This document shows positions 43,303 to 57,456 of a stretch of DNA of 64,000 bases, piece after piece. Where the stretch lies: NCBI RefSeq assembly GCF_005780165.1, contig NZ_VAUV01000007.1:248001-312000 (forward strand), in the 5' to 3' direction. Position 1 is the stretch's first letter, and each line of letters starts with the position of its first letter. Under the pieces are notes generated by a model. It was not told the origin of the DNA. It was given only the letters and a program-made list of their open reading frames with translations, and did not search any database. The position numbers were made by a program, and so were the translations under genes. This DNA is from Phragmitibacter flavus (GTDB taxonomy: Bacteria; Verrucomicrobiota; Verrucomicrobiia; Verrucomicrobiales; Verrucomicrobiaceae).

Positions 43303-44604
43303 TTAGGCGACCATTTCTTTGATGGTGCCGGAGCTGTCGCCGTGGCGTTCGGCTTTGACGCCGAGGCCGTGGAGCATGGTGAGCCAGGCGTTGCAGAGAG
43401 GGGTGTCTTCGGAGACAACAATGTTGTGGCCGAGCTTGAGGCCGGCACCGCCGCCGGTGATGAGGGTGGGGCAGTTGTCGAGGTCGTGTTCGGTGCGTAT
43501 GTTGCTGCCGTAAGCGAGGGCGACGTGATCGAAGAGACGGGTGCCGTCGGTTTCTGCGGTGGATTTGAGTTTGTCGATGAAACCGGCGAGGAGTTCGCTT
43601 TGGACGAGGTCGCGACGTTGCGAGGCCTGGTGTTTTTCGCCCATGGTGGAGTGGTAGTGGCTCATGTCATGGGGGGCGACTTTGATGTCGAGGCTGGTGA
43701 GAAGGCTGCCAACGGGCTGGCGGTAGGTGAGGACGCGGGTGCTGTCGGTTTGCATGGCGGCGACCATGAGGTCATACATGATTTTGATTTCTTCGCGTCC
43801 GGCGAGGCCGGGTTGGGGTTCGGGGATGGGGGCTTTGACGGGGGGAACGCCGATCCATTGTTCGTCTTTGCTGAGTCGGGTTTCGATATCGCGGATGCCC
43901 TGGAAATATTCGTCAAGTTTGGCGGTGTCAGTTTTGCTGAGGCCACGTTTGAGGTCGTTGGCGTTTTCGAGGACGGTGTCGAGCACGCTGCGTTTTTGGG
44001 CGAGCATGGCTTTTTGTTGTTCGATGGGGGTGTTGTCGGAGGAGAACAGTCGATGGTAGGCTTCGAGGGGGCCTTTGTGGCCGCCGACGGGTTTGCCGCT
44101 GATGTCCCAGGCCATGGAGAGGCCGGGGCCGTGGCCGGAGCGATCGTTTTCTTCGCTGTGGTTGAGCTGGAGGGAGGCGAAGCGGGTTTGCAGGCCGAGT
44201 TGGGCGGCGGCGACCTGGTCGGCAGAGATGCTGTTGTGGAAGGTTTGGCCGGGTTGTTCGAATCGGTTCGCTCCGGTGAGCCACCAGGTGCTGCCTGCGT
44301 GGCCGTCGTGGGTGTGTTTGTTCCAGAGACCCTGGACGATGGAAAAGTCGGCTTTGTGACGGGCGAGGGGTTTGAGGCCTTCGGGCAGGGTGTAGTCGGG
44401 GCCGGGCTGGTTGATGTCGGGAAACCAGGTTTCAGTGGTAATGCCCCAGCCAAAGCCGAGGAATACGAGTCGTTTGGGTGGGGTGGCGGGCGCAGTCGCG
44501 GCGGCGGAGGCGAAGCGGCGGAAGCCGAGGGATTGCAGGACGGGCAGGGCAATGAGCGCGGTGTTGGAGCGCAGAAAGTGGCGGCGGGAGAGGGGTGTGG
44601 TCAT
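43303..44604 (-). CDS. DUF1552 protein (twin-arginine leader)
   Basis: A 433-residue exported protein beginning with a Tat-like signal: LSRRHFLRSNTALIALPVL. Family features are KRLVFLGFGWGITTETWFP, a GHAGSTWWLTGANRF segment and the LVFLG...HGxGPGLSMAWD region. The frame stays open for another 380 codons upstream, but that part is Ser/Pro-rich antisense noise over the DUF1592 gene. It starts 7 bases after the DUF1592 stop and is the last gene of the operon. DUF1552 proteins travel with DUF1592 proteins, as here; function unknown. Confidence 0.88.
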   Translation of the reverse strand: MTTPLSRRHFLRSNTALIALPVLQSLGFRRFASAAATAPATPPKRLVFLGFGWGITTETWFPDINQPGPDYTLPEGLKPLARHKADFSIVQGLWNKHTHDGHAGSTWWLTGANRFEQPGQTFHNSISADQVAAAQLGLQTRFASLQLNHSEENDRSGHGPGLSMAWDISGKPVGGHKGPLEAYHRLFSSDNTPIEQQKAMLAQKRSVLDTVLENANDLKRGLSKTDTAKLDEYFQGIRDIETRLSKDEQWIGVPPVKAPIPEPQPGLAGREEIKIMYDLMVAAMQTDSTRVLTYRQPVGSLLTSLDIKVAPHDMSHYHSTMGEKHQASQRRDLVQSELLAGFIDKLKSTAETDGTRLFDHVALAYGSNIRTEHDLDNCPTLITGGGAGLKLGHNIVVSEDTPLCNAWLTMLHGLGVKAERHGDSSGTIKEMVA

Positions 44605-44611
44605 GATTCGG

Positions 44612-47320
44612 TTACTTGGTGTTGAAGGCTTTGCTGCTGACGACGGCGTGGATGAACTCGCGGGTGGCGAATTTTTTCGATTGGGTGTGGCTGACGATTT
44701 GTTCGATGAGGGGTTCGTCGCGGAAGCCAGTGGGGCGTCCGAGGGCGTAGCTGAGGAGGGCTTCGCTGAAGCCGCGGGCGAAGTCGTCGGAGCGGGAGGC
44801 GATGATGTTGCGGAGTTCGTGGTAATTGTTGAAGGCGGGGCCTTTGTGGAGGGTGGCGGCGGCTTCGATGGTCCAGGTTTTGGTGGATTTGGGATCGGGT
44901 TTGCCGTTGGGAAGGGAGGCAGTGTAGCTGTCCTGGGTGCGCCATTGGCCGACGGCGTCGAAGTTTTCGAGTCCGTAACCGATGGGGTCGATGCGGCGGT
45001 GGCAGCTGGCGCATTGGGGGTCTTCCTGGTGGGCGAGGAGGCGTTCCTTGGTGGTGAGGACCTGGCCGGTGAGGCGGGTGAGGGCGGGGATGTTGGGTGG
45101 GGCGGGTGGTGGAGGATCGTGGAGGAGTTTGCGAAGGACCCAGGCGCCGCGTTCGACGGGGCTGGTGTGTTCGCCGTTGCCGCCCATGTAGGCGATGGCG
45201 GCCATGCCGAGGAGTCCGCCGCGTGGGGAGTTGGGAGGCAGGGCAACCTTTTCAAAACCGTGGCCTTTGACGCCGGGGAGGCCGTAGTAGTTGGCGAGGA
45301 CGCGGTTGATGATGGCGTAGTCGGATTTGAGGAGGAGGCTGAGGTTTTCGTTGTGACGGACGAAGTGGCTGAGCGTGGCGTAGACTTCCTGTTGCGCGGC
45401 GAGACGGGTGCCGTTGTCGAAGCGGGGGTAGAGTTCGCGGTTGGGTTCGAAGAAGTCGAAGCGGTCCATGCCGAGCCATTGGTGAGTGAAGGCGTTGATG
45501 AAGTCTTCGGATCGTGGGTCGTCGAGGAGGCGTTCGGTTTGGGCGGCGAGGGTGGCGGGGTTTTGCAGGTCGCCGTTTTTGCCGAGTTCGCGAAGGGTGG
45601 TGTCGGGTGGGGCACTCCAGAGGAAGTAGGCGAGGCGGGTGGCGAGTTCGGGTCCGGTGAGTGAACGGGGTTTTTCCTCGGAGGAGGGTTCCGCAAGATA
45701 GAGGAACATCGGCGAGGCGAGGACAACGGAGAGGGTTTCTTTGAGGGCGGTGGCGGGTTTGTCACCGGCAGTGCGGCGGGTTTGATAGAGGGTGAGGAGT
45801 CGGTCGATGTAGTTGGCGGGTGGGGTCACGCCACGGAAAGCCTCGTGGGTGAAGCGTTCGAGGGCGCTGCGCAGCTCGGGCGTGGCCGGGGCGGGAGATT
45901 TGTCGTTGAGGGGGATGTTGTTGAGGGCGGCGATGGCGGGCGGAGTGGGTTTGGTGTTGTTGGGAAGGCGTTCGACTTCGATCCAGTCGATCCACAGGAC
46001 GAAGTCGGGGCCGAGGCCGTTGCGTTTGACGGCTTCGCTGCGTTTGCGGTTGCCGGATTCGTTGGTGTCCCAACTGCCTTTTTCGCGGAAGAAGAGCATG
46101 CGGGTGTCGTGATCGGAGTTGCCGCGGGTCATGGTGAGGGGGAACTCAACAATTTGGGGATCGTCGATGGTGCCGGTGATTTCGCGGGTGGCGAGCACGG
46201 GGCCCTGGCGGGCGTTGATGCCGAAGTCGAGGAAGCGGCGGTCGGCGGGGGCGTCTTTGGTGACGCCGGCTTTGACGCGGACGATGTAGTTGCCAGGGGG
46301 CCAACTGAAGGGAACGAGGACGTTGACGGATTTGAGGTTGAGTTCGGCGGGGTGGCGGGTTTCGGGTCCGAGATAGGCACCGGTTTTTACGTGGGGTTGC
46401 TGGAGGTAGTGCTGGTGGTATTCGAGCCAGCCAGCGCGGAGGGAGTCGTTGGCGAGGTCGGCGTCGTTTTCGCCTTTTTTGTCGAAGCCAAAGGAGCGTG
46501 GGGATGGGGCACCGGGGATTTTTTCCCATTCGCGGCGGAGCTGGGCGATGTCGTTGGGGTTTTTGATTTGGGTGCGGAGTTGGGCGACGATGGTGGCGTT
46601 TTCGGGGAGGGCGATGGCTTTTTCGACGGCTTCAACCCAACGTTGAGCGCGGGCTTTACCGTCGATCTGGTGGGCGACGAATTTTTCGATGACGGGCGTG
46701 AACGTTTCGGCTTCGTGGCGGAGGCTGCGTTGTTCGCTGGCGTTGAGGTGCCACGTGAAGGCTTCGGTGAGGGCTTCGCGTCCGAGGGATTGGTATTGTT
46801 CGAACTGGTTTCCGGACATGAAGAGGTTGATGCCGGCGGTGTCGAATCCACCTGCGGCGATGTCGGCAGGGAGTTCGCTGACGTTGATTTGGACGCCGAG
46901 AAGTTCGCGCAGAGTGTTGCGATATTCGCGGCGGTTGAGTCGACGCAGGGTGATGACGCCGTTTTGATCGCCGAGGCTGCGACGGGCGGCCACCATGGCG
47001 CTGGAGAGGTCGTCGAGGAAATCGGTTTTGGCGTCGCTGGCGGGTTGGGGTTCGTCGTCAGGGGGCATGTCGCCTGAGTTCATGGCATTCAGGACCATCT
47101 GCCATTTTTCGGCGGTTTGGACGTCGGTGATGGTGAGGGGGAGATCGTCGATGCGGAACTGGCCTTTGCGGGTGTCGGCGTTGTGGCAGGTGATGCAGTT
47201 TTCTTTAATAAGCGCGCGGTGTTTGTCAGGCAAAACGGCGCGTGGGGATTCAGCAGCGGCTGTGGTGGTGAGGCACAGGGCGAGCAAGGCGTGTTGAATT
47301 TTTTGGAGGGCGCGGATCAC
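44612..47320 (-). CDS. DUF1592/DUF1588/DUF1587 cytochrome-containing protein (PSD family)
   Basis: A protein of about 902 residues starting at GTG 47320 with a signal peptide (ending TTAAAES). The GTG overlaps the stop of the previous gene as GTGA. The N-terminus is a PSCyt1-type cytochrome c with ENCITCHNADTRKG (CxxCH). DUF1587 follows (about 130-195, LRRLNRREYRNTLRELLG), then a carbohydrate-binding-like middle, DUF1592, DUF1588 with the second motif CASCHRRIDPIGYGLENFD, and DUF1585 at the end. These proteins are the partners of DUF1552. Electron transfer linked to extracellular polymer processing is likely but unproven. Confidence 0.9.
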   Translation of the reverse strand: MIRALQKIQHALLALCLTTTAAAESPRAVLPDKHRALIKENCITCHNADTRKGQFRIDDLPLTITDVQTAEKWQMVLNAMNSGDMPPDDEPQPASDAKTDFLDDLSSAMVAARRSLGDQNGVITLRRLNRREYRNTLRELLGVQINVSELPADIAAGGFDTAGINLFMSGNQFEQYQSLGREALTEAFTWHLNASEQRSLRHEAETFTPVIEKFVAHQIDGKARAQRWVEAVEKAIALPENATIVAQLRTQIKNPNDIAQLRREWEKIPGAPSPRSFGFDKKGENDADLANDSLRAGWLEYHQHYLQQPHVKTGAYLGPETRHPAELNLKSVNVLVPFSWPPGNYIVRVKAGVTKDAPADRRFLDFGINARQGPVLATREITGTIDDPQIVEFPLTMTRGNSDHDTRMLFFREKGSWDTNESGNRKRSEAVKRNGLGPDFVLWIDWIEVERLPNNTKPTPPAIAALNNIPLNDKSPAPATPELRSALERFTHEAFRGVTPPANYIDRLLTLYQTRRTAGDKPATALKETLSVVLASPMFLYLAEPSSEEKPRSLTGPELATRLAYFLWSAPPDTTLRELGKNGDLQNPATLAAQTERLLDDPRSEDFINAFTHQWLGMDRFDFFEPNRELYPRFDNGTRLAAQQEVYATLSHFVRHNENLSLLLKSDYAIINRVLANYYGLPGVKGHGFEKVALPPNSPRGGLLGMAAIAYMGGNGEHTSPVERGAWVLRKLLHDPPPPAPPNIPALTRLTGQVLTTKERLLAHQEDPQCASCHRRIDPIGYGLENFDAVGQWRTQDSYTASLPNGKPDPKSTKTWTIEAAATLHKGPAFNNYHELRNIIASRSDDFARGFSEALLSYALGRPTGFRDEPLIEQIVSHTQSKKFATREFIHAVVSSKAFNTK

Positions 47321-48318
47321 GGAAGGGCGGGACGTTGGGTGAGGGTGGTGCGGATGTTGTCGAGGAAGAGGCCTTTGAACTCGACGGGTTTGGGGATTTC
47401 GGGTCGGTGGGAGCCGTGAAGGTGGGCGCGCAGGTGGATCATGAGGTAGCGGGTGCTGGCAGGAAGGCGGAGTTCGGAGGCGACGTTTTGCCAATGGTTG
47501 GGGGAGGCGTCTGTGGTTTCGGTTCGCGCCGAGGTGGCGAGGATGCGTAGGGCGGACTCTGAGGTTTCGGGATTTTCGGAAAGCGCGGCGCGGCTTAGGA
47601 AGGCGTCGTCGCGTTCGCCGGGAGGAGGGAGGGCGTCGATGGCGTAAACGGTGACGCCGCAACTGAGGCGTTGGAGGTCGGCCTGAGGCAGGGCAGAGAA
47701 CTGGGCGCTGATGAGGAGGGAGACGTCGCCGCGATGGATGCCGAGGTCGGGGTTGGTGAGGTCGATGATGTGGAAGAGGTCGGCGACCCAGCCGTCGCGA
47801 ATAGGTTTACCTTGGTAATCAGCGCGCAGGAAGCGCAGCATGTGCTTGCCTTGGGCCGGCTGGACGTTGCTGGTGGGGCCGACGATTTCTGAGAAGTCGC
47901 CGCTCCATTGTCCAGGTTGAAGGGGCATGCCGGTGACGAGCGGCGCGGCGGAGGTTTCGAAGGTTTCTTCGAGGAGGGCGATGGGTTTTGGAGAGTAGTT
48001 GCCGACGTAACCCCAGACGACGGTGGCGCAGAACAGTCCGATGACGAGTCCTGCGACGGCGGACATGAGGGGGTTAAGTGAAAGGGACGATGTGCGGGTG
48101 CGGGCAGAGGTTTTGAGGAGGGGTGCCGGAATGACATGGCGAATTTCGGCGAGGCTGCATTCGTTGTCGTTGTAGAGGAACCAAAGCTGGCGAGCGTCGG
48201 CGTTGGATTTGAGGAGGGTGGACAGGGATTCTTTGTCGATGGGGGTAAGGGTTTGATTGAGGGCGGCGTTGAACAGCCGGTGCCATTCGTCGGGAGTGGG
48301 AACGGGGTTGGAGTTCAT
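47317..48318 (-). CDS. membrane protein downstream of ECF sigma (anti-sigma-like)
   Basis: A 333-residue protein whose ATG overlaps the sigma-factor stop (ATGA). An N-terminal cytosolic segment of about 85 residues (WHRLFNAALNQTLT, ARQLWFLYNDNECSLAEIRH) is followed by one TM helix (about residues 87-107) and a large periplasmic domain with a jelly-roll-like pattern (LRFLRADYQGKPIRD). The layout and position are those of anti-sigma factors or FecR-like regulators. No classic zinc-binding anti-sigma or full FecR motif is seen, so it may be a membrane signal transducer. Confidence 0.72.
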   Translation of the reverse strand: MNSNPVPTPDEWHRLFNAALNQTLTPIDKESLSTLLKSNADARQLWFLYNDNECSLAEIRHVIPAPLLKTSARTRTSSLSLNPLMSAVAGLVIGLFCATVVWGYVGNYSPKPIALLEETFETSAAPLVTGMPLQPGQWSGDFSEIVGPTSNVQPAQGKHMLRFLRADYQGKPIRDGWVADLFHIIDLTNPDLGIHRGDVSLLISAQFSALPQADLQRLSCGVTVYAIDALPPPGERDDAFLSRAALSENPETSESALRILATSARTETTDASPNHWQNVASELRLPASTRYLMIHLRAHLHGSHRPEIPKPVEFKGLFLDNIRTTLTQRPALP

Positions 48319-48884
48319 ATGGGAAGGGTGTTGGTCATGCGGCGTTGCACGCATTCGGCGAGGGCGCGACGAATGAAGTTGAGTTTGTTGTAGATGGTTT
48401 GGATGGCGCGTCCCTGTTGTTGGGCGAGGGTGGCGGCTTCAATGCCTTCCAGGTAGATGGCATCGACAAGATCGCGATGCTGAGGATCAAGTTTTTCGAT
48501 ACAGGCTTCGAGGGCTTCCATGCGTGGATGCCACTGGAGCAGGTGGGATTCGCGTTCGGTGGCAAGGGTTTGCAGGAGTTCGTCCTCGAATTCGAGGTGG
48601 GAGCGCCCGGTGCTGCGTTGGAAGTTGCGGGTTTCGTAGAAGGCAACGGTGGTGGCCCAAGCGATGAAGTCGGTGCCCGGTTCGAAGGTGGCAAATCGAC
48701 GCCACATGAGGAGGCTGGTGCGTTGGAGGACGTCCTCAGCATCGTGACGGTTGCCGAGCAGGGACATGATGTAGCGCAGCAGCAGTGCATGGGCTCCGTT
48801 AAGCAGCACGACGAATTCTTCCTGCCGGTCAGGCGGGAGCGGGGAAGAGGGTTCGTGCGGGTGTGGCTGCGGATGATTGGTCAC
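48315..48884 (-). CDS. ECF RNA polymerase sigma factor
   Basis: A 189-residue sigma70-family ECF protein starting at GTG. Region 2 is visible as LLRYIMSLLGNRHDAEDVLQRTSLLMWRRF (split here: helix with DAEDVLQ, then a W-rich core), and region 4 as LDPQHRDLVDAIYLEGIEAATLAQQQGRAIQTIYNKL, with a helix-turn-helix. It belongs to the planctomycete/verrucomicrobial ECF group that precedes PSD-type genes. It is the first gene of a four-gene operon and is translationally coupled to the membrane protein. Confidence 0.93.
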   Translation of the reverse strand: MTNHPQPHPHEPSSPLPPDRQEEFVVLLNGAHALLLRYIMSLLGNRHDAEDVLQRTSLLMWRRFATFEPGTDFIAWATTVAFYETRNFQRSTGRSHLEFEDELLQTLATERESHLLQWHPRMEALEACIEKLDPQHRDLVDAIYLEGIEAATLAQQQGRAIQTIYNKLNFIRRALAECVQRRMTNTLPI

Positions 48885-49170
48885 TGAGGGGGTATGTAGG
48901 CGGCGAACCCAGTCTTACCGGGATTTTTTGGGGTGGGGTGGCTAGTGATGTGGTTGAGAGTGGTGAGAACTGTGCAAAGAAATCACTGCAGGAATGGTGA
49001 AGTCGGCGGCGGAGTTTGGCGAACAAGTCAGTCCCGGTCCGAGACTCGGTGCGCCGCACGACACAATTTTGTCTAAACCCTCCGGAAAGTTACGCGGCTC
49101 AAGCGCTGGATTGTGCTGCCTGTCAATTCAAGTGAGTGGGAGGTTTTTTGCGAGCGTCAGGCAGTATGAG
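48885..49170. other. intergenic region, sigma-operon promoter and end of AlbA_2 operon
   Basis: About 285 bases between the sigma operon start and the stop of the AlbA_2/HATPase gene. It must hold the sigma-operon promoter. No hairpin terminator or repeat was recognised. Confidence 0.4.
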
Positions 49171-50436
49171 TTAGTCTCCCAAGCTAGCAGCATAGATGAT
49201 GAGTTGGAGTTCATCGCCATCCAGCAAACGATAAAGGGGGCGCTTGCTGGAGAGACGCTCGGAAAGCTGAAAGATGAGCGGGACGCCTTCGCCACGTCTG
49301 TCCATGATGGTGGTGCGGTCTGAATTGAGTCCTTCCAATTCGGGGACCGGACATTTGGCCAGCAGGCTGGTGAGATTCTCGTTTCGGGACGCTTGACGGA
49401 ACTCCAGACTTTCGAGCGTCATGGTGTTAGGGATGGCCCCCGGGGAATGCAGTTCCAGTCGATCTTCGAACATACGGAGGCGCACCTTTTGGCCATAAAT
49501 GGCATAGTCTCTATGGGAGACGGCGTTCGTGATGGCTTCGAATACAGCGGTGAGGTCGTATTGTGGGAGATCATGCCGCCCAAGGGTTTTGCTCGCAGCG
49601 ACCTTCATATTCCGTGCCACAAAACGGCAGGCCTCCGCGATTTGCTCATTCAAAGGGCCGTGAATGTCTTTGGCATCTAACTGGTAGGCATGGTGGTCCG
49701 ATGGTGCGACTTCGTTGCCGCGATAAGCGACAGCTTGAATGAATGCTGAGGGCAGGAAATCATGTGGTCTGTGACAGGCCATCAACAAGCCGGATACTGT
49801 CGGGTGCCACGCACTTTCTGAGTCACGGTCCGCCAACTTGAGTTTGGATAGCGTGTCGTAATCTGTGCCCGTTGTGCGCACCGTGGCGAACTTCTTCCAC
49901 AAGTCAGCCGACAGCGCATCCATCGGTGCATTTGGCACCACTTGCTCATCAAAGCGCAGGAGACGCGACTGGCTGCGCTGTTGGAACAGGCGTGCGAGGT
50001 ATTCGGGTGCCATCTCGCGCACAGAACTACCAGCCCGTATTTTGTAACCGCCGGGCGAGCGATGAACAAATAAACTGCGCGGCAAGTCCAGCCGGAAAAC
50101 GGGCTGCAACGCTCCGGTGCCATCCGGAAGCTCAATGCGGCGCAGGGTGTAGGCCTGGAGGGGTGGCTCCAGCCGGGTTTCCATGATTTCACGCAGCCAA
50201 GTTTCAGTGAGTTCCAGCTTGGCTGACTCGATGCCAACAATGTCGCGAGTCTTGTCCTCGACTCCGAGCACAATGATTCCTCCGGCGGCATTGCTCATGG
50301 CAGCAATCTCGTCCGCTATTTTTTCTGGCCTTGGGCCATCTACTTTCCCGCCGCGAAAGAGAATCTGCTTACACTCAAGCAGACTGTCTTCTCCGAGCTG
50401 AATCTGGCGCAGGAGTTCGTCGTTTGTATCAAACAT
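49171..50436 (-). CDS. AlbA_2 (Schlafen-type) domain protein with HATPase-like C-terminus
   Basis: A 421-residue cytosolic protein. The N-terminal AlbA_2 domain (about residues 8-155) shows LLECKQILFRGG and EIAAMSNAAGGIIVLGVED, the signature of this nucleic-acid-binding fold. The C-terminal part has an ATPase-like pocket: AVFEAITNAVSHRDY (E..xNA..HRDY motif), DRLELHSPG and an Asp-Arg-rich RRGEGVPLIF. This is the RecG-like/HATPase_c_4 layout found in stress and defence regulators. It lies 3 bases after the PHP-SMC gene on the same strand. Confidence 0.82.
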   Translation of the reverse strand: MFDTNDELLRQIQLGEDSLLECKQILFRGGKVDGPRPEKIADEIAAMSNAAGGIIVLGVEDKTRDIVGIESAKLELTETWLREIMETRLEPPLQAYTLRRIELPDGTGALQPVFRLDLPRSLFVHRSPGGYKIRAGSSVREMAPEYLARLFQQRSQSRLLRFDEQVVPNAPMDALSADLWKKFATVRTTGTDYDTLSKLKLADRDSESAWHPTVSGLLMACHRPHDFLPSAFIQAVAYRGNEVAPSDHHAYQLDAKDIHGPLNEQIAEACRFVARNMKVAASKTLGRHDLPQYDLTAVFEAITNAVSHRDYAIYGQKVRLRMFEDRLELHSPGAIPNTMTLESLEFRQASRNENLTSLLAKCPVPELEGLNSDRTTIMDRRGEGVPLIFQLSERLSSKRPLYRLLDGDELQLIIYAASLGD

Positions 50437-50439
50437 AGG

Positions 50440-53400
50440 TCATGATTCCTCTCTACCCATTCGGTCAAAACGTTTGCGGAAGGCAATGGTGCCACCCTCC
50501 ATGACATCACAGATAAATTGGCGGGTGGCTTTTGCTTGGAGACCGCCTGAAGCAGCTTCATCCCGTTTCACCTGGCCCCCGTTGTCCACCATAGCGTGAA
50601 CCAGATCCGCGTCTCCATGGACAACGATGTTTGGGTTGTGAGTGACGATGATGATCTGGCGGTGCTCTTTCATGGTGCGAACCTGCTCCACGATGAGGGA
50701 CATGATCATCCGGGTATCAAGGTCGTCCTCTGGCTGATCAAGGACCAGAGGCTCATTGCCGAAGGAAAGCAGGAAGGAGAGAACCGCTGCAGTCTGCTGG
50801 CCGATTGAACCTTGGGAGATGGACTTCCAGGCGGTTGACTCAGCAGTGCGATATTCAAGCTTCAAATGGTCCTCGGGAAGCCATGTTTCAATGGCTTCTC
50901 TGCGTGATGGATTGGTGTTGAGCTGGCTTCTAAGGTTATTTTGGAGAGCAGCAAAGCCTTGTTCATTCTCTGAAGAATCGATCAATTCAAGAATGCGCTG
51001 ACGAACAGCAGCAGCACCTGCTTCGCCTGCACCAGCGCCTTGAAAAACTCGGAGCAACGAATCTGTCCTAGCTTCCTCCGAGACTTCGATTGATGTGCTG
51101 AACTTATCACCGTCTACGCCCATGGCTTCCCGCAGAGTGCGTTCCACCTGGGAGGCTTCCGCGCCCATAGGTGCTAGTATCAGCCTAAGTAGGGTGCCAT
51201 TGGCATTGTGCGTGGCGACAAATGACTCACGGGCGGTGCTGATGGCTTTCCTGGCGGCATGCACGGCTGCCAATTGTTCGGTGGCAGACGTTTGGAGGCG
51301 CGTGATTTCCTCCTTCGTCCCCTTGTGCCGTGCCAGCCGTGTCTCCAATTGTGCGCGGTCCTGATTCAGTTTCGTCAATCTAGCCGGATCAAAGGTCGTT
51401 GTCTGGGTTCCCAGCAAAGCATCGTAGGCGGTCTTGGAATCCTTGCATGCCTGGAACCAAGCACTGCTGCGTAGGTTTTGATCCAATGTGGTAAGGACAG
51501 TTTGAATGGCGTCGGCTTGGGCGCGGATCTGGGTGGCGACGGTATCCAACTCCCTTTGTGCTTCTTGATACAGGGCGTGAGCCTCGACTGAGACAGTGTC
51601 TGCGGCTTGAATCAGCGTCGCTGGGAGATCTGGAAGGCCAAGGCGGTCTGCCTGTTCGTTGAGTTCCTGAGCAAGGGCAAGAGATGGAGAATCAGGCTTG
51701 AGATTGGGAAACAACGCGCGTGCTTGCGCTTGGCGTCGTTGGTAGTCTTTGACGGCATCGGATTGAACCTTTTCCAGCTCGGCCAGGATGTCCTTCAGGG
51801 AGGCGGAATCCTGAGCTTCGTTGGCCAAAGTCGCATTGAGTTCGCGGATTTTTGCCCTCGTAGCGGAATAGGAAGCAATGGCTTGCTTCAATTGCTCTTC
51901 AAGAGCGGCGACGTTTTGCTCTCGGTCGATGATTTCCATCAATCCAGCCGGACGACGGCTCATTTCTAGGACTTGTTTCTGGCTATAGATACTGAGCGGA
52001 AATCGGGATGGTGTGTAGGCTCCTCCCTCGTTGGCCGGCAGTGATCCCAATTCGCCTACACGAACGGCAGGAGGGGAAGATCTGGCACCCTGACCCAGGA
52101 AGGAAGCCTGCCAGTGCAGTTCCGCCGCCTGGGCTGGGGAGCGGTAGAGAACTTTGATAACGCTGGCCTCTCTGAGAATGACCCCATCCTGGCCGCGCGA
52201 TGCAGGAATCTGAGCCCAGCGCCAAAAGTCCCCTGCCGGGGATTCCCGCACCGGCGTATCTCGATCGTAGTCTGGTAACTCCCGTCCACGTTGCGTGGCG
52301 AGGCGTAGAGCGTGAACAAAGGTGCTTTTTCCCGAGCCTCGTCCTCCAACCAGGACATTCAGCCGGGGGTGTAGGGGCATCTCAAGCGGGGTCACTCGGC
52401 CAGCTGTTTTGATTTGAGCGATGGTGATCTTTTCTACTGCATGGTCTGGCCAGACATTCCAATCAGTGGTGTCGCTACTGGAGATGGGACGAATCGACCA
52501 ACTCCCAGTGACGGCATCTCCACCCCTTGAACGTATCGCGGAGCCGTCCGCGAAGGCCATGCGCAGACCCTCTAAGTTCGGCTGGGTCATGTGAACCATG
52601 GAGAATCCGTTGCGCCCGATGTCTCTGGGCATGTGGCTGTCTGAACCGGTAACCCGGGCGAGGCGCGCAAGGACCGGGTGGCGCTGAATATCCGATTCGG
52701 GGAGTCTCGACCAGTCTCGAACCTCAAGAGCATTCAAACCCGCTTCAAGCACCAGATTCAAAGTTTGTCCCACTGTAGGTGAAAAGTTCAGCAAATTTGC
52801 CGCCACCTCGCCTGCTGTGGCCAATTGTTGGAGGGCATCAGAATGAGACAAGCCCTGCTGATTGCGGAAATTTCGATACCGTCGGCCATCCATCGGAACG
52901 TCCATCCAAAGCAGGCCGCACGGTTCGTCGATATGCGCAGCGATGGTAAGCCCGCCGTGCTCTTTGATGATCCGCACACAGTCAGCCATTGATTTGGAAC
53001 ATACGCCAGAGTCGGTGCGTCCTCGTGCTCCTGGTGGGTAGCCACAAGCGGTAATCACACCACTTACATCTTCCAGATCCTTTGCCGGATCAAAAACGGC
53101 CAGCAGGTGAAGGCCGCCATTTACGGAGAGTTCAAATCCCGGAAAGATGACCAAAGGCCGGAACGAAACGTCGTTGGGATCCATAGTAGAGTAAGCTGTC
53201 TGAAGACGGGCGATGAATCCTGTAGTGTTGTGATCCGTGACAACCACCGCATCCAGTCCAGCGGCCATATGATAATTAAGCCAATCTTCCGGCGTCTGCT
53301 GTTTGAGTGAAGCCCGAACTGCTGCATCTTGTTCTCTACCTGCATAGTCATCGGACTCTGGAGTGTGAGTATGGAAATCCATTTTCCACCATTTGGCACC

Positions 53401-53478
53401 GGGGTAGACGTAGCGGCCAGGGTATGCAGGCTGGGTGCTAGGGGCAGGCGGCTGGGTGCTAGGGGTGATCGTGCTCAT
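50440..53478 (-). CDS. PHP-domain and SMC-like ATPase protein (TrlF-type)
   Basis: A protein of about 1,012 residues. The PHP phosphoesterase domain (about 30-330) has HTHTP (H36, H38), VVTDHNTTG (D82, H83), AAHIDEPCG and GSDSH (278-282), all metal ligands. The ATPase follows: Walker A VGGRGSGKST (about 377-386), a coiled-coil arm (about 540-760), signature SQGSIGQQ, Walker B PLVLDQPEDDLD and the HNP switch near the end. This is the RecF/SMC arrangement; I recall public annotations calling such proteins TrlF-family. The N-terminus is Thr/Pro rich. The frame begins 12 codons earlier but the 3' end of an upstream fragment overlaps the ATG here as ATGA. Confidence 0.85.
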   Translation of the reverse strand: MSTITPSTQPPAPSTQPAYPGRYVYPGAKWWKMDFHTHTPESDDYAGREQDAAVRASLKQQTPEDWLNYHMAAGLDAVVVTDHNTTGFIARLQTAYSTMDPNDVSFRPLVIFPGFELSVNGGLHLLAVFDPAKDLEDVSGVITACGYPPGARGRTDSGVCSKSMADCVRIIKEHGGLTIAAHIDEPCGLLWMDVPMDGRRYRNFRNQQGLSHSDALQQLATAGEVAANLLNFSPTVGQTLNLVLEAGLNALEVRDWSRLPESDIQRHPVLARLARVTGSDSHMPRDIGRNGFSMVHMTQPNLEGLRMAFADGSAIRSRGGDAVTGSWSIRPISSSDTTDWNVWPDHAVEKITIAQIKTAGRVTPLEMPLHPRLNVLVGGRGSGKSTFVHALRLATQRGRELPDYDRDTPVRESPAGDFWRWAQIPASRGQDGVILREASVIKVLYRSPAQAAELHWQASFLGQGARSSPPAVRVGELGSLPANEGGAYTPSRFPLSIYSQKQVLEMSRRPAGLMEIIDREQNVAALEEQLKQAIASYSATRAKIRELNATLANEAQDSASLKDILAELEKVQSDAVKDYQRRQAQARALFPNLKPDSPSLALAQELNEQADRLGLPDLPATLIQAADTVSVEAHALYQEAQRELDTVATQIRAQADAIQTVLTTLDQNLRSSAWFQACKDSKTAYDALLGTQTTTFDPARLTKLNQDRAQLETRLARHKGTKEEITRLQTSATEQLAAVHAARKAISTARESFVATHNANGTLLRLILAPMGAEASQVERTLREAMGVDGDKFSTSIEVSEEARTDSLLRVFQGAGAGEAGAAAVRQRILELIDSSENEQGFAALQNNLRSQLNTNPSRREAIETWLPEDHLKLEYRTAESTAWKSISQGSIGQQTAAVLSFLLSFGNEPLVLDQPEDDLDTRMIMSLIVEQVRTMKEHRQIIIVTHNPNIVVHGDADLVHAMVDNGGQVKRDEAASGGLQAKATRQFICDVMEGGTIAFRKRFDRMGREES

Positions 53479-53684
53479 AGTATCTTCCGATAGACAGTAG
53501 ACAGGATCTCGCAAAAAACCAATTGTTGAAGTTTGCCTCCCATCTTTCCGATCAAATCCTCGTGATTTTGATTGAGGGCGTCTTGGGCTTTATATAAATG
53601 AACGCGCTTTTCATCGCGCTGGGCATCGGCGGCTCGGATCTGCTTCCGACTGGGAGTTCGCCCTCCTGTTGGGACTAGGCGAAT
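53475..53684 (-). pseudogene. 3' remnant of a third gene upstream of the PHP-SMC gene
   Basis: Seventy codons without stop, ending TGA that overlaps the next ATG (ATGA), the junction expected for a translated operon partner. The product is Lys/Arg/Glu-rich helix: GRTPSRKQIRAADAQRDEKR then AQDALNQNHEDLIGKMGGKL. It resembles the C-terminus of some Swi2/Snf2 helicases accompanying defence ATPases (my recollection, weak). A further ATG at 53723 is in the same frame but a TGA at 53685 interrupts it, so no complete protein is seen and 5' loss or a disruption is likely. Confidence 0.55.
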
Positions 53685-53689
53685 TCATT

Positions 53690-53894
53690 CAACGCGGTGT
53701 TTGGCAAGTGCGGTTTTGCTCATGTGAATTCGGTGGAAGAACTGATGACTATGGAGCTTGATCACATGCAGGGACAATGGGTTTGTTGGGGTTTCAGGCA
53801 TGTTTTTAGCGTTACTTTGATCGGATGTTTGAATGCTGCCAACGGGGACATTTGTGGTCCCGGGGATTGGAACTCTTGGATTAGAGCAAGGATT
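53690..53894. other. intergenic region with no convincing gene
   Basis: About 200 bases upstream of the remnant. A 73-codon plus-strand frame (53697-53918) overlaps the Nudix gene and looks like chance. No terminator or repeat recognised. Confidence 0.4.
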
Positions 53895-54431
53895 TTAGGG
53901 CTGGCTGCCGAGCCATAGGAGGGCGATGACGGACATGCCGTCGCGGATGGTGCCGTTGCGGGCCATCTCGATGGCGTCTTCCAAAAGGACGCGTTTGACT
54001 TCGATTTGCTCGGTGCTTTCGGGGATGGCCTTCTTAAAATGGAGCCCGCGGGCGGTGAAGAGATAGGCGACTTCGTTGGTGGTGGAATTGGAAAGCTGGA
54101 GGTCGGAGAGGATCAATTCAAACTGGTCGGCGTGGATGCCGGTTTCTTCGATGAGTTCGCGACGGGCGGTGTCGATGAGTTCTTCGCCTTCAGGACTGCC
54201 ACCTTCGGGGATCTCCCATTCGTAGCTTTGATGACAATAACGATATTGGCCAACGAGGTAGGTGTAACCTTCGTCGTCAATGGGAACGACACCGACGGCG
54301 CGGTTTTTGAATTCGACCACGCCGTAGATGCCGGGATTGCCACCGGGATCGGTGACCTGGTCTTCACGGACACGAATCCACGGATTGTGATAGGTTTCGC
54401 GGGTGCTGTGGGTGATCCAGGGGGAGAGCAT
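53895..54431 (-). CDS. Nudix hydrolase (ADP-ribose pyrophosphatase-like)
   Basis: A 178-residue cytosolic hydrolase of standard length. The full Nudix box is present, starting GGSPEGEELIDTARR and ending ELIEETGI (GX5EX7REUXEEXGU). Upstream there is a typical FKNRAVGVVPIDDEGYTYLVGQYRY beta sheet of ADP-sugar pyrophosphatases, and a C-terminal EVKRVLLEDAIEMARNG helix. It probably cleaves ADP-ribose or another nucleoside diphosphate derivative. It follows, on the same strand, a block of low-complexity repeats upstream of its start. Confidence 0.92.
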   Translation of the reverse strand: MLSPWITHSTRETYHNPWIRVREDQVTDPGGNPGIYGVVEFKNRAVGVVPIDDEGYTYLVGQYRYCHQSYEWEIPEGGSPEGEELIDTARRELIEETGIHADQFELILSDLQLSNSTTNEVAYLFTARGLHFKKAIPESTEQIEVKRVLLEDAIEMARNGTIRDGMSVIALLWLGSQP

Positions 54432-54434
54432 ATC

Positions 54435-54501
54435 GAAAGGCTAAAGGATAAGGGCTAAAGGCTAAGAATGGAAAGGATAAAGGATAAGGGCTAAAGGCTA
54501 A
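54435..54501. repeat. direct repeat of a 23-base low-complexity unit
   Basis: A 23-base unit, AAAGGATAAGGGCTAAAGG plus CTAA, occurs at 54443-54465 and 54479-54501 with identical sequence, and a related AAAGGCTAAAGG stretch precedes the first copy. The same words appear at 26286. It lies between the Nudix start and the ClpP-like stop. Confidence 0.85.
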
Positions 54502-54539
54502 TTGGGGAGAGTGCAACTGAGAGGGGATGCCCTTGAAGA

Positions 54540-55973
54540 TTAAGGGAGTTTGTAGTAGCCGTCAGGGTTGTAGAGCCAGTAGCAGTCGAAGGGATTGAGG
54601 CGGGGGAGAAGCATGCTGGGGCGGCCTTTGGCGTCGGTGGTCTCGGCGTGGGGGTCGGCAGAGGCGGTGCTGGTGGCCAGGCGGCGCATGGAGGGCTCGG
54701 TGCCGGAATCTTCAGGGAGGCGGAGGGTGCCGGTTTCTTCGATCTCTTCGACGACGACATCGACCCACTTGAGTTTTTGGGCTTCGTCGGCGAATTCGTT
54801 CCAGTCGCCGCTGGAGGATTTGGCATACATGCGTTTGATGAACTCCTCACGGGTGATGCCCATTTTGTCGGCGACGGGTCCGGCGAGACGTTTCCACCAT
54901 TCCTCCATTTCACGCACCCATTCCTGCTGCTGGGTGAGGTTGCCGCCGCTGAAGGAGGCGATTTGATGGTGGAGGATGACGGCGTTGGGATAGGCGAAGG
55001 ATTTTTCGGCGAGGGTGGTGATGCAGGCGGCCATGCTGGCGGCGAAAGATTTGACGACGGTGTAGACGGGGGCCTCGGAGCCTTGCATGGCTTTCAATAT
55101 CTTGTAGCCGGCCATGACGGAGCCGCCGGGGGAGTCGTCGATGACGATGAAGATGGGCAGGTTGCGGTCGCGGTTATTGAAGTAGTTGATGCGGTCGACG
55201 ATGTCGTTGGCGGTGCGCATGCCAATCAGACCATTGAGGGGAATGCGGCGGTCGGAGAGGACAAGGTTGCCATCCTTGAGGGGGTTTTCGAGGTAGATGG
55301 GCTGGTTGTTGGCGTAGTTGCGGGGGTCGGCCTGCTTCTCTTCAAGCTCCATGGAGGCGGCAAGGCGGGTGGTGTCTTTTTTGATGACGTTCTCCATCCG
55401 TTTGATTTCGGCGATCTCAGTCTCGACCTCGGCTTTGGCCAAGGTGGAGATGAGGGTGGCCTTCTCAAGTTGGACGCGAAATTCGCCGAGAGTCTGTTCG
55501 GCCAGCACTTTGCGTTGGAAATCTTCGAGGTCCTGGGCGGCCTTGAGTTCGGCGAGCTGGGCGGCGAGACGTTCGGCTTTTTGTTTGCCGGGGGCGAGTT
55601 CGGCATCAAGACGGGCCTGGGCAAGGGCGAGCTCGGCGAGGATTTTATCTTTTTCGGCGGCGAGCCGGGCGGTTTCGGTTCCCAGTTTTTCAACGGCGGG
55701 ATCGTCGCTGTTGGAGGAATCGGGGGTGACCTTGGTTTCGATGGTGACCGATGGCGAAGTGGTGGTGACGGTCGGCGCGGCTGCCGGAGAGATGGTGGTC
55801 AACGCCGCGATCTGACCCTGTCCCAGATCCTGATTTTGACCAATGATGCTGCCCTCAGCAGGAGTGGCACTGGATTCCGACGGTGGAGGGGATGTCGGTG
55901 TTTCGGCGAATGCAGCGAATGGGATCGCTACTGCCATGATCATGTGAACGAAGAGACGACTAGGTTTCAGCAT
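54540..55973 (-). CDS. exported ClpP-like serine protease with coiled coil
   Basis: A 477-residue protein with signal peptide (about residues 1-25, FAAFAE). Residues about 75-210 form an Ala/Glu/Lys-rich coiled coil (LAAEKDKILAELALAQARLD). The C-terminal domain is ClpP-like: IPLNGLIGMRTANDIVDRI, FIVIDDSPGGSVMAGYKIL, then SFAASMAACI with the likely nucleophile Ser, and ILHHQIASFSGG with the His. It lacks a Clp ATPase-binding partner here and is exported, so it may act in the periplasm or be membrane-associated. The frame opens 16 codons before ATG 55973. Confidence 0.82.
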   Translation of the reverse strand: MLKPSRLFVHMIMAVAIPFAAFAETPTSPPPSESSATPAEGSIIGQNQDLGQGQIAALTTISPAAAPTVTTTSPSVTIETKVTPDSSNSDDPAVEKLGTETARLAAEKDKILAELALAQARLDAELAPGKQKAERLAAQLAELKAAQDLEDFQRKVLAEQTLGEFRVQLEKATLISTLAKAEVETEIAEIKRMENVIKKDTTRLAASMELEEKQADPRNYANNQPIYLENPLKDGNLVLSDRRIPLNGLIGMRTANDIVDRINYFNNRDRNLPIFIVIDDSPGGSVMAGYKILKAMQGSEAPVYTVVKSFAASMAACITTLAEKSFAYPNAVILHHQIASFSGGNLTQQQEWVREMEEWWKRLAGPVADKMGITREEFIKRMYAKSSSGDWNEFADEAQKLKWVDVVVEEIEETGTLRLPEDSGTEPSMRRLATSTASADPHAETTDAKGRPSMLLPRLNPFDCYWLYNPDGYYKLP

Positions 55974-56127
55974 GGGCCGCACTATGCACACGCAAGGGGG
56001 GCTCTGCAAAGGATTCGTCACTGCGATTGCGCGTGGACGTAAAATTTACGGATTTTGTGAATATCTTCTTGATTTATTGGGAAGGAGAGGGAGTTTGTCT
56101 GCCGCTTAATCCAGAAACTTATCGATC

Positions 56128-56382
56128 ATGGTTGTTATCAGACTCCGCCGCGAAGGCACGAAAAATCGCCCTTTCTACCGTATTGTTGCCGCCGACCAGC
56201 GGTTCCGCCGCGACGGTCGTTTTATTGAAATCTTGGGCACCTATGACCCATTGACCGAAAAGGATTCTTTGAAGATCGACCTTGAGAAGGCGGATTCCTG
56301 GATTCAAAAAGGTGCACAGCCGACGGAAACCGTGGGCAGCTTGATCAAAAAAGCTCGCAAAGCCGCAGCCGCTGTTGCCTGA
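56128..56382 (+). CDS. rpsP: 30S ribosomal protein S16
   Basis: An 84-residue small basic protein. The opening [20 protein letters not shown] and the following [12 protein letters not shown] are diagnostic for bS16, which binds the 5' domain of 16S rRNA and stabilises the 30S body. Followed by a terminator and a KH-domain gene, the usual neighbours in the rpsP operon; rimM and trmD do not follow in this window. Confidence 0.98.
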
Positions 56383-56425
56383 GCAAGGCGAACTCGAGCG
56401 GGTTAGCTTTTCGTTTTTAGTTTTT

Positions 56426-56468
56426 AACACCGTAGTGTCGGCATCGGCACTGCGGTTGTTTGCTTTTT
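56426..56468 (+). terminator. Rho-independent terminator after rpsP
   Basis: AACACCGTAGTGTCG pairs with CGGCACTGCGGTTGTT with two wobble pairs and one bulge, followed by TTTGCTTTTT. It lies 44 bases after the rpsP stop and before the KH gene. Confidence 0.65.
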
Positions 56469-56497
56469 ATGGCGGGTGATGCGAAGGATCGAATGAT

Positions 56498-56890
56498 ATG
56501 AATGCGCCGGAAGCTTTGCGGGAATTTTTGATGTATGTGGTGGCGAATTTGATCGAGCACCCGAAACAGGCGTCGATTGCGGTGGGCACGACGCAGAGTG
56601 GGGCGGTGTCGTTTCGGATTCAGCTGGCACCGGATGATGTGCGCCGGGTGGTGGGGAGGAATGGATTTACCATCAGCGCGATCCGTTCATTGGTGAACGT
56701 GGCCGCGCACAAGCATGGGGTGCGCGTGGTGTTGCGTGTGGATGGGGTGAGTGATGAAGATGAGGCGGAGCATATGGGAGAGGGTGGTGGAGAGGGACAA
56801 CCACAGCCGAGCGAAGCGAGACAGCCTGCCGAAGGCAGCACCGAAGGGCAGAGCGAAGCGAAGCAAATGGACACGAATTCACACGAATAG
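56498..56890 (+). CDS. khpA: KH-domain RNA-binding protein (KhpA-type) with repeat-derived tail
   Basis: A 130-residue protein. The first 85 residues are a KhpA-type KH domain: LREFLMYVVANLIEHPKQ, a beta strand SFRIQLAPDDV, then the GxxG loop VVGRNGFT and helix ISAIRSLVNVAAHKHG. It binds RNA, and KhpA usually pairs with KhpB (Jag). The last 45 residues are a low-complexity, Glu/Gln/Ser-rich tail encoded by GC-rich inverted repeats (56800-56870), not typical of KhpA, ending near the GGACACGAATTCACACGAAT repeat word. Confidence 0.85.
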   Translation: MNAPEALREFLMYVVANLIEHPKQASIAVGTTQSGAVSFRIQLAPDDVRRVVGRNGFTISAIRSLVNVAAHKHGVRVVLRVDGVSDEDEAEHMGEGGGEGQPQPSEARQPAEGSTEGQSEAKQMDTNSHE

Positions 56891-56895
56891 AGAAA

Positions 56896-57456
56896 TTATT
56901 CCCCAGATTCATTGCTCTTATCTGATATGGAACGGACAAATCTGAGATAGTTGTTGAAGGGCTCGGAGTTGCTAGAGAACCCGTCGGAATAACGGTGAGT
57001 CTTGTTGTCTATAAGGACAGCAACGTTGATGTTTGTATACGAGAATCCCATTGGAAGCAGTTTCTGAAGGTGCTCATTTTCTTCAGCTGAAAGTTGTTCA
57101 CGTCGTTCTTGTTCACTCAATTCTGCAACAGCGTCAGCGTAAGCTATTCGGACTTTGAGGAGCATTTCCGTAGCCTCAGCATCGCTAATGATGGCTACAG
57201 CGGTGGGCAGTAAATCGGTTCTGGACCTGCTGTAGGGAATGGAAGAAATGATGACTTTATTTTCCAGACGTTGAAGAATAATGTATGGGCCGAATCCGGC
57301 AGCATCGCCGTAACACCAGAAAAATCCGAATCTTACACTCTGCCAGTTGGCTTTGAAAAGTTCGCCAATTAATGGATTAGGTTTTTGTGCACTGGCAGGG
57401 ATGCAAGCCATTAGGCAAAATGCAACCAGTGTGGAGAGTCGTTGTTGGAATGCCAT
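56896..57456 (-). CDS. hypothetical exported protein
   Basis: A 186-residue protein with signal peptide (about residues 1-23, ending ASAQ). The body has mixed alpha/beta character: FGFFWCYGDAAGFGPYIILQ, VAIISDAEATEMLLKVRIAYADAVAEL, and LPMGFSYTNINVAVLIDNKTHRYSDG. No family recognised. It is convergent with the KH gene, its stop lying 6 bases beyond that gene's stop, and may precede or share context with the peptidase upstream. Base use is rather AT-rich compared with neighbours. Confidence 0.65.
   Translation of the reverse strand: MAFQQRLSTLVAFCLMACIPASAQKPNPLIGELFKANWQSVRFGFFWCYGDAAGFGPYIILQRLENKVIISSIPYSRSRTDLLPTAVAIISDAEATEMLLKVRIAYADAVAELSEQERREQLSAEENEHLQKLLPMGFSYTNINVAVLIDNKTHRYSDGFSSNSEPFNNYLRFVRSISDKSNESGE

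Follow-up and report, generated by a model that had tools for sequence, protein, structure and literature searches.

A TrlF-TrlG gene pair in Phragmitibacter flavus is probably a mobile anti-virus module left by a larger defense operon

We analyzed a 64,000-nucleotide stretch of the genome of Phragmitibacter flavus (positions 248,001 to 312,000 of contig NZ_VAUV01000007.1), which we will call the window. On its reverse strand are two adjacent genes, A and B. Gene A (trlF-like; 50440..53478) encodes a 1012-residue protein with a PHP phosphoesterase domain and an SMC/Rad50-type ATPase, as identified from NCBIfam, PADLOC, and a phylogenetic tree. Gene B (trlG-like; 49171..50436) encodes a 421-residue protein with a Schlafen AlbA_2 domain and a GHKL (HATPase_c_4) domain, as identified from Pfam and a structure model. 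The initial annotation of this DNA had placed the two genes 3 bases apart, which is exact: the gap from the trlF stop to the trlG start is 50437..50439 (-), and it is conserved in three relatives (loci L003, L004, and L005). Just upstream of gene A, on the same strand, is the tail of a third gene (53475..53648), which comprises the last 57 codons and the stop of a DrmD-like SNF2 helicase and overlaps trlF by the four bases ATGA.

The reading frame for gene A (50440-53514, reverse strand) encodes 1024 residues and begins with TTG at 53514. The ATG at 53478 is the better start; it has a Shine-Dalgarno-like GGAAG five bases before it (53484..53488, reverse strand), and it overlaps the stop codon of the remnant. 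Residue numbers for gene A refer to the 1024-residue (TTG) form.

The pair is flanked by Nudix and ClpP-like genes and by a sigma factor. The region with the sigma factor (43303-48884 of the window) contains a sigma-70-type gene, then a gene without a Pfam match in the usual anti-sigma position, and also a DUF1592/DUF1552 (PSD/HXXSHH) gene pair. This arrangement of a sigma factor with DUF1592/DUF1552 genes is common in Planctomycetes and Verrucomicrobia.

Gene A matches the NCBIfam model for TrlF family AAA-like ATPases (NF045780) with 450 bits, where the cut-off is 350, and the alignment spans positions 2-944 of the model's 944. It also matches PADLOC's Ppl model (291 bits) and NCBI's Ppl equivalog (NF042955; 415 bits, which is under the cut-off of 1000). 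The PHP domain (residues 40-354; 52453..53397, reverse strand) was missed by Pfam at the threshold that we used; the NCBIfam TrlF model spans it. All ten of its metal-ligand positions are intact (D46, H48, H50, D94, H95, E128, H136, H194, D292, and H294). The SMC/Rad50-like ATPase (residues 357-1019; 50458..52446, reverse strand) was identified by Pfam's AAA_21 and SMC_N, by the structure model, and by alignment. It is split: a Walker A motif (GxGSGKS, 390-397) is followed by a coiled coil (535-771), a Walker B motif (DQPEDDLD), and THNPN (D/THN motifs). A search of PDB sequences with TrlF gave no match, so we compared folds instead. In the predicted structure of gene A (mean pLDDT of 77.3), the PHP part matches Endonuclease Q (Z = 18.1) and RNase AM (Z = 15), and the ATPase part matches the heads of SMC and Rad50 (Z = 15-17). 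Gene A is a TrlF-family ATPase that joins PHP to an SMC-type ATPase, which bears out the initial annotation on this point.

To place gene A among its relatives, we used a tree of 68 TrlF-type proteins. The protein from the window groups with those from L003-L005, and next with L045 and two TrlFs from plasmids that lack a partner. These lie within a clade of 18 proteins (SH-aLRT of 99) that contains both of the annotated Ppl proteins. The TrlF proteins of the Photorhabdus type form a separate clade.

In gene B, Pfam identifies SLFN_AlbA_2 (E = 1.8e-12; residues 16-142, 50011..50391, reverse strand) and HATPase_c_4 (E = 1.4e-17; residues 315-413, 49198..49494, reverse strand). The latter is a GHKL-type domain that resembles the folds of SpoIIAB and histidine kinases. 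An N-box (E300, N304, and H308) lies just upstream of it. A profile of 15 TrlG homologs matches the structures of SLFN14 (E = 5e-9), SLFN13-type proteins, SLFN11, SLFN12, and SLFN5, and also a bacterial structure labelled CbCash. In the SLFN14 profile alignment, E206, E211, and D249 of SLFN14 correspond to E16, E21, and D61 of gene B; the domain also has K23. Structure 9jr9, whose title describes an E211A mutant, has an alanine at the expected position, which confirms the register of the alignment. In the AlphaFold model (mean pLDDT of 73.9), the first 160 residues match SLFN11, SLFN5, and SLFN14 at Z of about 9, and the C-terminal half matches GHKL proteins such as SpoIIAB and histidine kinases, also at Z of about 9. 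The full architecture is similar to that of DIP2311 (3lmm; Z = 19.4), but with a large domain motion (rmsd of 15.6).

These alignments indicate that the AlbA_2 domain of gene B belongs to the Schlafen type and that none of the three predicted catalytic acidic residues is missing. The initial annotation had noted an HATPase-like pocket in this protein. The HATPase_c_4 domain is indeed present, but the key feature, a putative Schlafen RNase domain that retains the catalytic acids, had been missed. That annotation's statement that the motif ligands appear intact agrees with what we found in both genes.

Other labels for TrlG proteins seem to be mistaken. PADLOC reports TrlG as "pAgo" with 55 bits, but this match spans only positions 59-387 of a model of length 1121, so we rejected an identity as Argonaute and take the match to be homology of AlbA_2/GHKL to a fusion protein. 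Some TrlG homologs are labelled as RecG helicases, which is a misnomer (PMC7554251). We also rejected Menshen (NsnA/B/C) for the pair, as NsnB is merely a weak P-loop match (26 bits). The genome that contains the window encodes a distant second protein of the AlbA_2/HATPase type, which is 27% identical (L002; contig C21:40353-41300).

The initial annotation could not place this combination of genes in a named system. However, the two-gene unit corresponds to trlF-trlG of the temperature restriction locus (TRL; PMC7554251), and the larger protein bears NCBI's name TrlF, which evidently derives from that locus. The pair is a variant of this already-described operon. In Photorhabdus laumondii, TRL is a three-gene locus in which trlG (AlbA_2 at 14-128 and HATPase_c_4 at 298-365) adjoins trlF, which was annotated as a histidinol phosphatase (PMC7554251).

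The coding remnant upstream of gene A had been recognized as a truncated third gene, and its identity comes from comparison at the protein level: nucleotide comparison of the upstream region to L003-L005 found nothing, and PADLOC has no match for the remnant alone. The remnant's frame stops at the TGA at 53475-53477 and aligns without gaps to the extreme C-terminus of SNF2/DrmD-like helicases. When we compared it to the DrmD-type helicase of L054 (705 bits to PADLOC's DrmD), none of 2,000 shuffled sequences attained its score. The remnant was matched in nine other genomes of the phylum at E ≤ 1e-3, and eight of these nine matches lie within reading frames of 951-990 residues, with the tails aligning throughout. 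The resemblance to SNF2 helicase tails is far beyond chance. It indicates that an SNF2 helicase was once encoded upstream, of which the last ~57 codons alone remain.

In L187, a DrmD-like helicase directly precedes an AlbA_2 protein. This AlbA_2 protein is of another kind; its C-terminal domain is Fic-like, and the two genes overlap by 16 bases (L187:1044-5569). So AlbA_2 proteins recur straight after this type of helicase. Several of the helicases that match the remnant are accompanied by DNA methylase and ResIII genes. Together with the remnant itself, this indicates that the locus descended from a defense operon that contained a helicase. The core gene set of DISARM, Hma, or BREX is incomplete at the locus, and SNF2's share of it is the 57 terminal codons.

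A scan of contigs found only three near relatives, L003-L005. In two or more of these, the two-gene unit occupies an unrelated site: next to a sulfatase in L003 and next to an ABC transporter and a kinase in L005. (In this clade, the neighbors of the pair in the window, in L003, and in L005 are not defense genes.) The relatives at other sites have no internal stops, and they are 87-93% identical to the window's proteins for TrlG and 73-90% identical for TrlF. We looked next to the orthologous Nudix gene in nine members of the family, and the pair was absent there in all nine, although in four of them the Nudix gene and the ClpP-like gene are found together. In our sample of 388 genomes from the phylum, close homologs of TrlG were present in 6 and homologs of TrlF in 23. 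The pair is a patchily-distributed accessory element rather than a housekeeping operon. It also looks mobile, because it is found by itself at unrelated sites within the clade and is missing from the orthologous positions.

The contig of L005 is titled Candidatus Kuenenia stuttgartiensis, yet its TrlG is 87% identical to the window's; this is possibly a binning error or a recent transfer. In L053 (7820-11391), a Photorhabdus-type trlF and a shortened trlG lie between the genes for G6PD and tyrosyl-tRNA synthetase, in a genome from the window's phylum. This TrlF is very close to versions from plasmids of Klebsiella and Pseudomonas, which suggests a recent cross-phylum transfer or contamination.

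Homologs of TrlF or TrlG are found inside type I, II, and III restriction loci, Hma, BREX-like, and PglZ loci, plasmids, and phage contigs. By a raw count, at least 10 of 20 regions from the phylum have TrlF or TrlG next to genes for restriction, methylases, Snf2, BREX, or PglZ; several of the remaining regions are interrupted by contig ends or were not scanned. For instance, the homologs adjoin type I restriction genes in L050 and L060, MmeI in L059, an XhoI restriction-modification system in L056, a BrxC-like protein and an Eco57I-type methylase in L057, HmaA and HmaB in L058, SNF2, DNA methylase, and ResIII genes in L054, GmrSD in L046, PglZ in L051, and a DNA methylase and an AAA gene in L044. 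In L044 (8307-10699), a TrlG-like Schlafen-GHKL gene follows an RNA ligase gene and lies beside the DNA methylase and AAA ATPases. The pairing of an RNA repair enzyme with a putative tRNase is suggestive.

Mobile elements give a similar picture. On plasmid pNDM-KN, the pair lies between HsdR and HsdS, and on pCFR-0b27, it lies between HsdS and HsdR. TrlF without a partner is found on plasmids after a helicase and an N6 methylase, or adjoining a type II restriction gene. In many plasmid records, including pYR3 of Yersinia ruckeri, the two genes are annotated next to each other. Among viral contigs, we found TrlF at 76 loci with over 200 bits, and the TrlF-TrlG pair in one. Three viral contigs (L084-L086) have long TrlG-like genes (467-518 amino acids) but lack a TrlF in the vicinity, which shows that Schlafen-GHKL proteins travel solo in phages too.

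The initial annotation had read the genes as a candidate conflict or anti-phage operon. This is supported by the homology of TrlF to Ppl and by the homologs inside restriction, Hma, and BREX-like loci. That annotation had also raised an Snf2-type helicase as something to look for beside the homologs, and the lost gene upstream was itself such a helicase.

We compared the active sites of the two proteins across TrlF-TrlG pairs. All ten PHP ligands are present in the window's clade, in L045, and in Ppl. In contrast, all seven of the Photorhabdus-type TrlFs that are paired with TrlG (L011, L012, L013, L053, L058, L060, and L140) have D94N and a replacement of H294 by K, D, or Q, and their TrlG partners have Q at position 21 (E21Q). 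In one odd pair (L014), the HxH motif of the PHP domain is lost from TrlF and E21 is retained in TrlG. As judged by these residues, the window's pair retains both nuclease sites while the Photorhabdus-type pairs are degraded. The association between the PHP site and E21 spans two or three lineages only, so we did not compute a statistic for it. Given E21Q, it is uncertain if the Photorhabdus-type lineage of TrlG cleaves RNA.

Published mutations in TrlG also bear on the Schlafen site. Using close homologs, we mapped 11 published missense sites from P. laumondii at which substitutions relieve the growth arrest, and we recovered the numbering by matching residues. Five of the 11 fall on columns that are identical in at least 12 of 13 sequences (1.7 expected, p = 0.018). 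One of the five is S16N, which changes a serine that is invariant in the GEDS motif; the first catalytic glutamate is two residues away. These data indirectly support a requirement for the Schlafen site in the growth arrest by TrlG.

We think it reasonably probable that the pair is a compact and mobile two-component anti-invader module, with a TrlF/Ppl-type PHP-SMC protein and a TrlG-type Schlafen-GHKL partner. TrlF would most likely be the sensor and the first effector. While NTPs are plentiful, its SMC/Rad50-like ATPase would keep the PHP nuclease inactive; during infection, which would yield DNA ends and drain nucleotides, the ATPase would engage those ends. The second effector would most likely be TrlG. 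As a Schlafen-type RNase with tRNA as its probable target, it would be gated by nucleotide binding to the GHKL domain and would arrest growth once TrlF has been triggered or overwhelmed. The pair would derive from a larger SNF2-helicase defense operon and would now move as a stand-alone cassette. We infer phage defense by the pair, cleavage of tRNA by TrlG, and an interaction in which TrlF controls TrlG. The biochemistry expected of TrlF is that of Ppl, and the growth arrest is that reported for Photorhabdus TrlG; both are carried over from the literature on these relatives. The initial annotation suggested that nucleic acid, sensed by the ATPase, could switch the PHP nuclease; this agrees with the reports on Ppl, in which NTP depletion is a further input. 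Several observations count against the module: the published phenotype of TRL is growth arrest, most TrlFs occur without TrlG, the neighbors in the window, L003, and L005 are not defense genes, and gene A is under the Ppl equivalog cut-off.

A more specific form of this idea is tentative: two-stage immunity with two nucleases, in which a Ppl-type sensor of DNA ends and the nucleotide pool, its PHP exonuclease still active, would govern a Schlafen RNase whose catalytic site is complete. Among pairs of the Photorhabdus type, the nuclease of TrlF would have degenerated so that TrlF is a sensor or regulator, which would leave TrlG as a growth-arrest switch.

Instead, the pair might be a stress-triggered switch for growth arrest, as in TRL, with TrlG as an effector that is induced by temperature or stationary phase, TrlF as its modulator, and defense islands as mere carriers. 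The window has the same pair of domains as TRL, and P. laumondii can grow at 36 °C after mutations in trlG or deletion of the operon, while the operon restores the arrest (PMC7554251). But operons for restriction, Hma, and BREX-like systems, as well as mobile elements, repeatedly harbor TrlF or TrlG, the Ppl relatives are anti-phage, and induction by heat could be a by-product of a defense toxin. Also, a search for trlR, the regulator gene of TRL, had no result at the window's locus: using tblastn with a 79-residue protein from beside trlF in Y. ruckeri, which we took to be TrlR, we found none in 46001-57000 of the window or in L003-L005. We consider this explanation unlikely.

We are more doubtful that TrlF acts alone, as a single-gene phage defense like Ppl, with TrlG as an independent neighbor (such as a transcriptional regulator or a separate defense gene). 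TrlF does not need TrlG, as 55 of the 68 TrlFs in the tree lack a TrlG partner and Ppl functions as a single gene, and TrlG is found without TrlF as well (L044, L046, L047, and L084-L086). Yet the 3-base spacing is constant and the genes were co-transferred in four relatives at differing sites, pairing arose or persisted in several lineages of TrlF, and the active-site states of TrlF and TrlG match in the pairs that we saw. It is very improbable that the pair is a decaying and non-functional leftover of a larger SNF2-helicase defense operon, even though the upstream helicase is down to its last 57 codons, because both genes are full length and without stops, with all catalytic residues intact and with high identity to relatives elsewhere. 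Genes that are intact and conserved at other sites were presumably maintained under selection without the helicase.

The pair links separate literatures: TRL, with temperature restriction of puzzling role, and the anti-phage effectors Ppl and bacterial Schlafens. If this link is right, temperature restriction in Photorhabdus would probably be auto-activation, or a side effect, of an immune module. The clade that has both nuclease sites (the window, L003-L005, and L045) offers material for studying how a sensor of DNA ends might control a Schlafen RNase, a step that also bears on animal Schlafens.

Among named systems, TRL of P. laumondii, with the locus on pYR3 of Y. ruckeri that was named as a syntenic TRL (PMC7554251), shares with the window's pair the two gene families and their order, strand, and adjacency. 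Its TrlG has AlbA_2 and then HATPase_c_4, and its TrlF, a PHP-SMC ATPase, likewise belongs to the family that NCBI names TrlF. However, the window's TrlF is on another branch, on the Ppl side, its TrlG is only 26-30% identical, and the substitutions of the Photorhabdus type (D94N, H294K/D/Q, and E21Q in TrlG) are absent from it. The published phenotype of TRL is temperature-dependent growth arrest, not phage defense, and no trlF mutants were recovered (PMC7554251).

Ppl from E. coli is a 3'-5' exonuclease for single-stranded DNA that is activated by depletion of the nucleotide pool and by 3'-OH ends (2026 review, PMC12904381). This single-gene anti-phage PHP exonuclease-NTPase has the same two domains as the window's TrlF, has the ten PHP ligands, and is in the same clade of the tree. 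But the Ppl proteins in the tree have no TrlG beside them, and the window's TrlF is under the equivalog cut-off.

In the literature that we found (subscription articles and preprints aside), no paper names PHP-SMC and Schlafen proteins as a pair. According to a 2026 survey, at least 1017 taxa have, next to BREX loci, a Schlafen RNase in fusion with a wHTH and a minimal histidine kinase (PMC12839542). These share the combination of Schlafen AlbA_2 with GHKL and the linkage to defense, but the partner in the window is TrlF instead of BREX, and Pfam finds no C-terminal wHTH in gene B. Finally, animal SLFN11, SLFN13, and SLFN14 differ in that their lobe is duplicated and their C-terminal domains are others than the GHKL of gene B, but they share its AlbA_2 RNase domain, with E, E, and D at the aligned positions.
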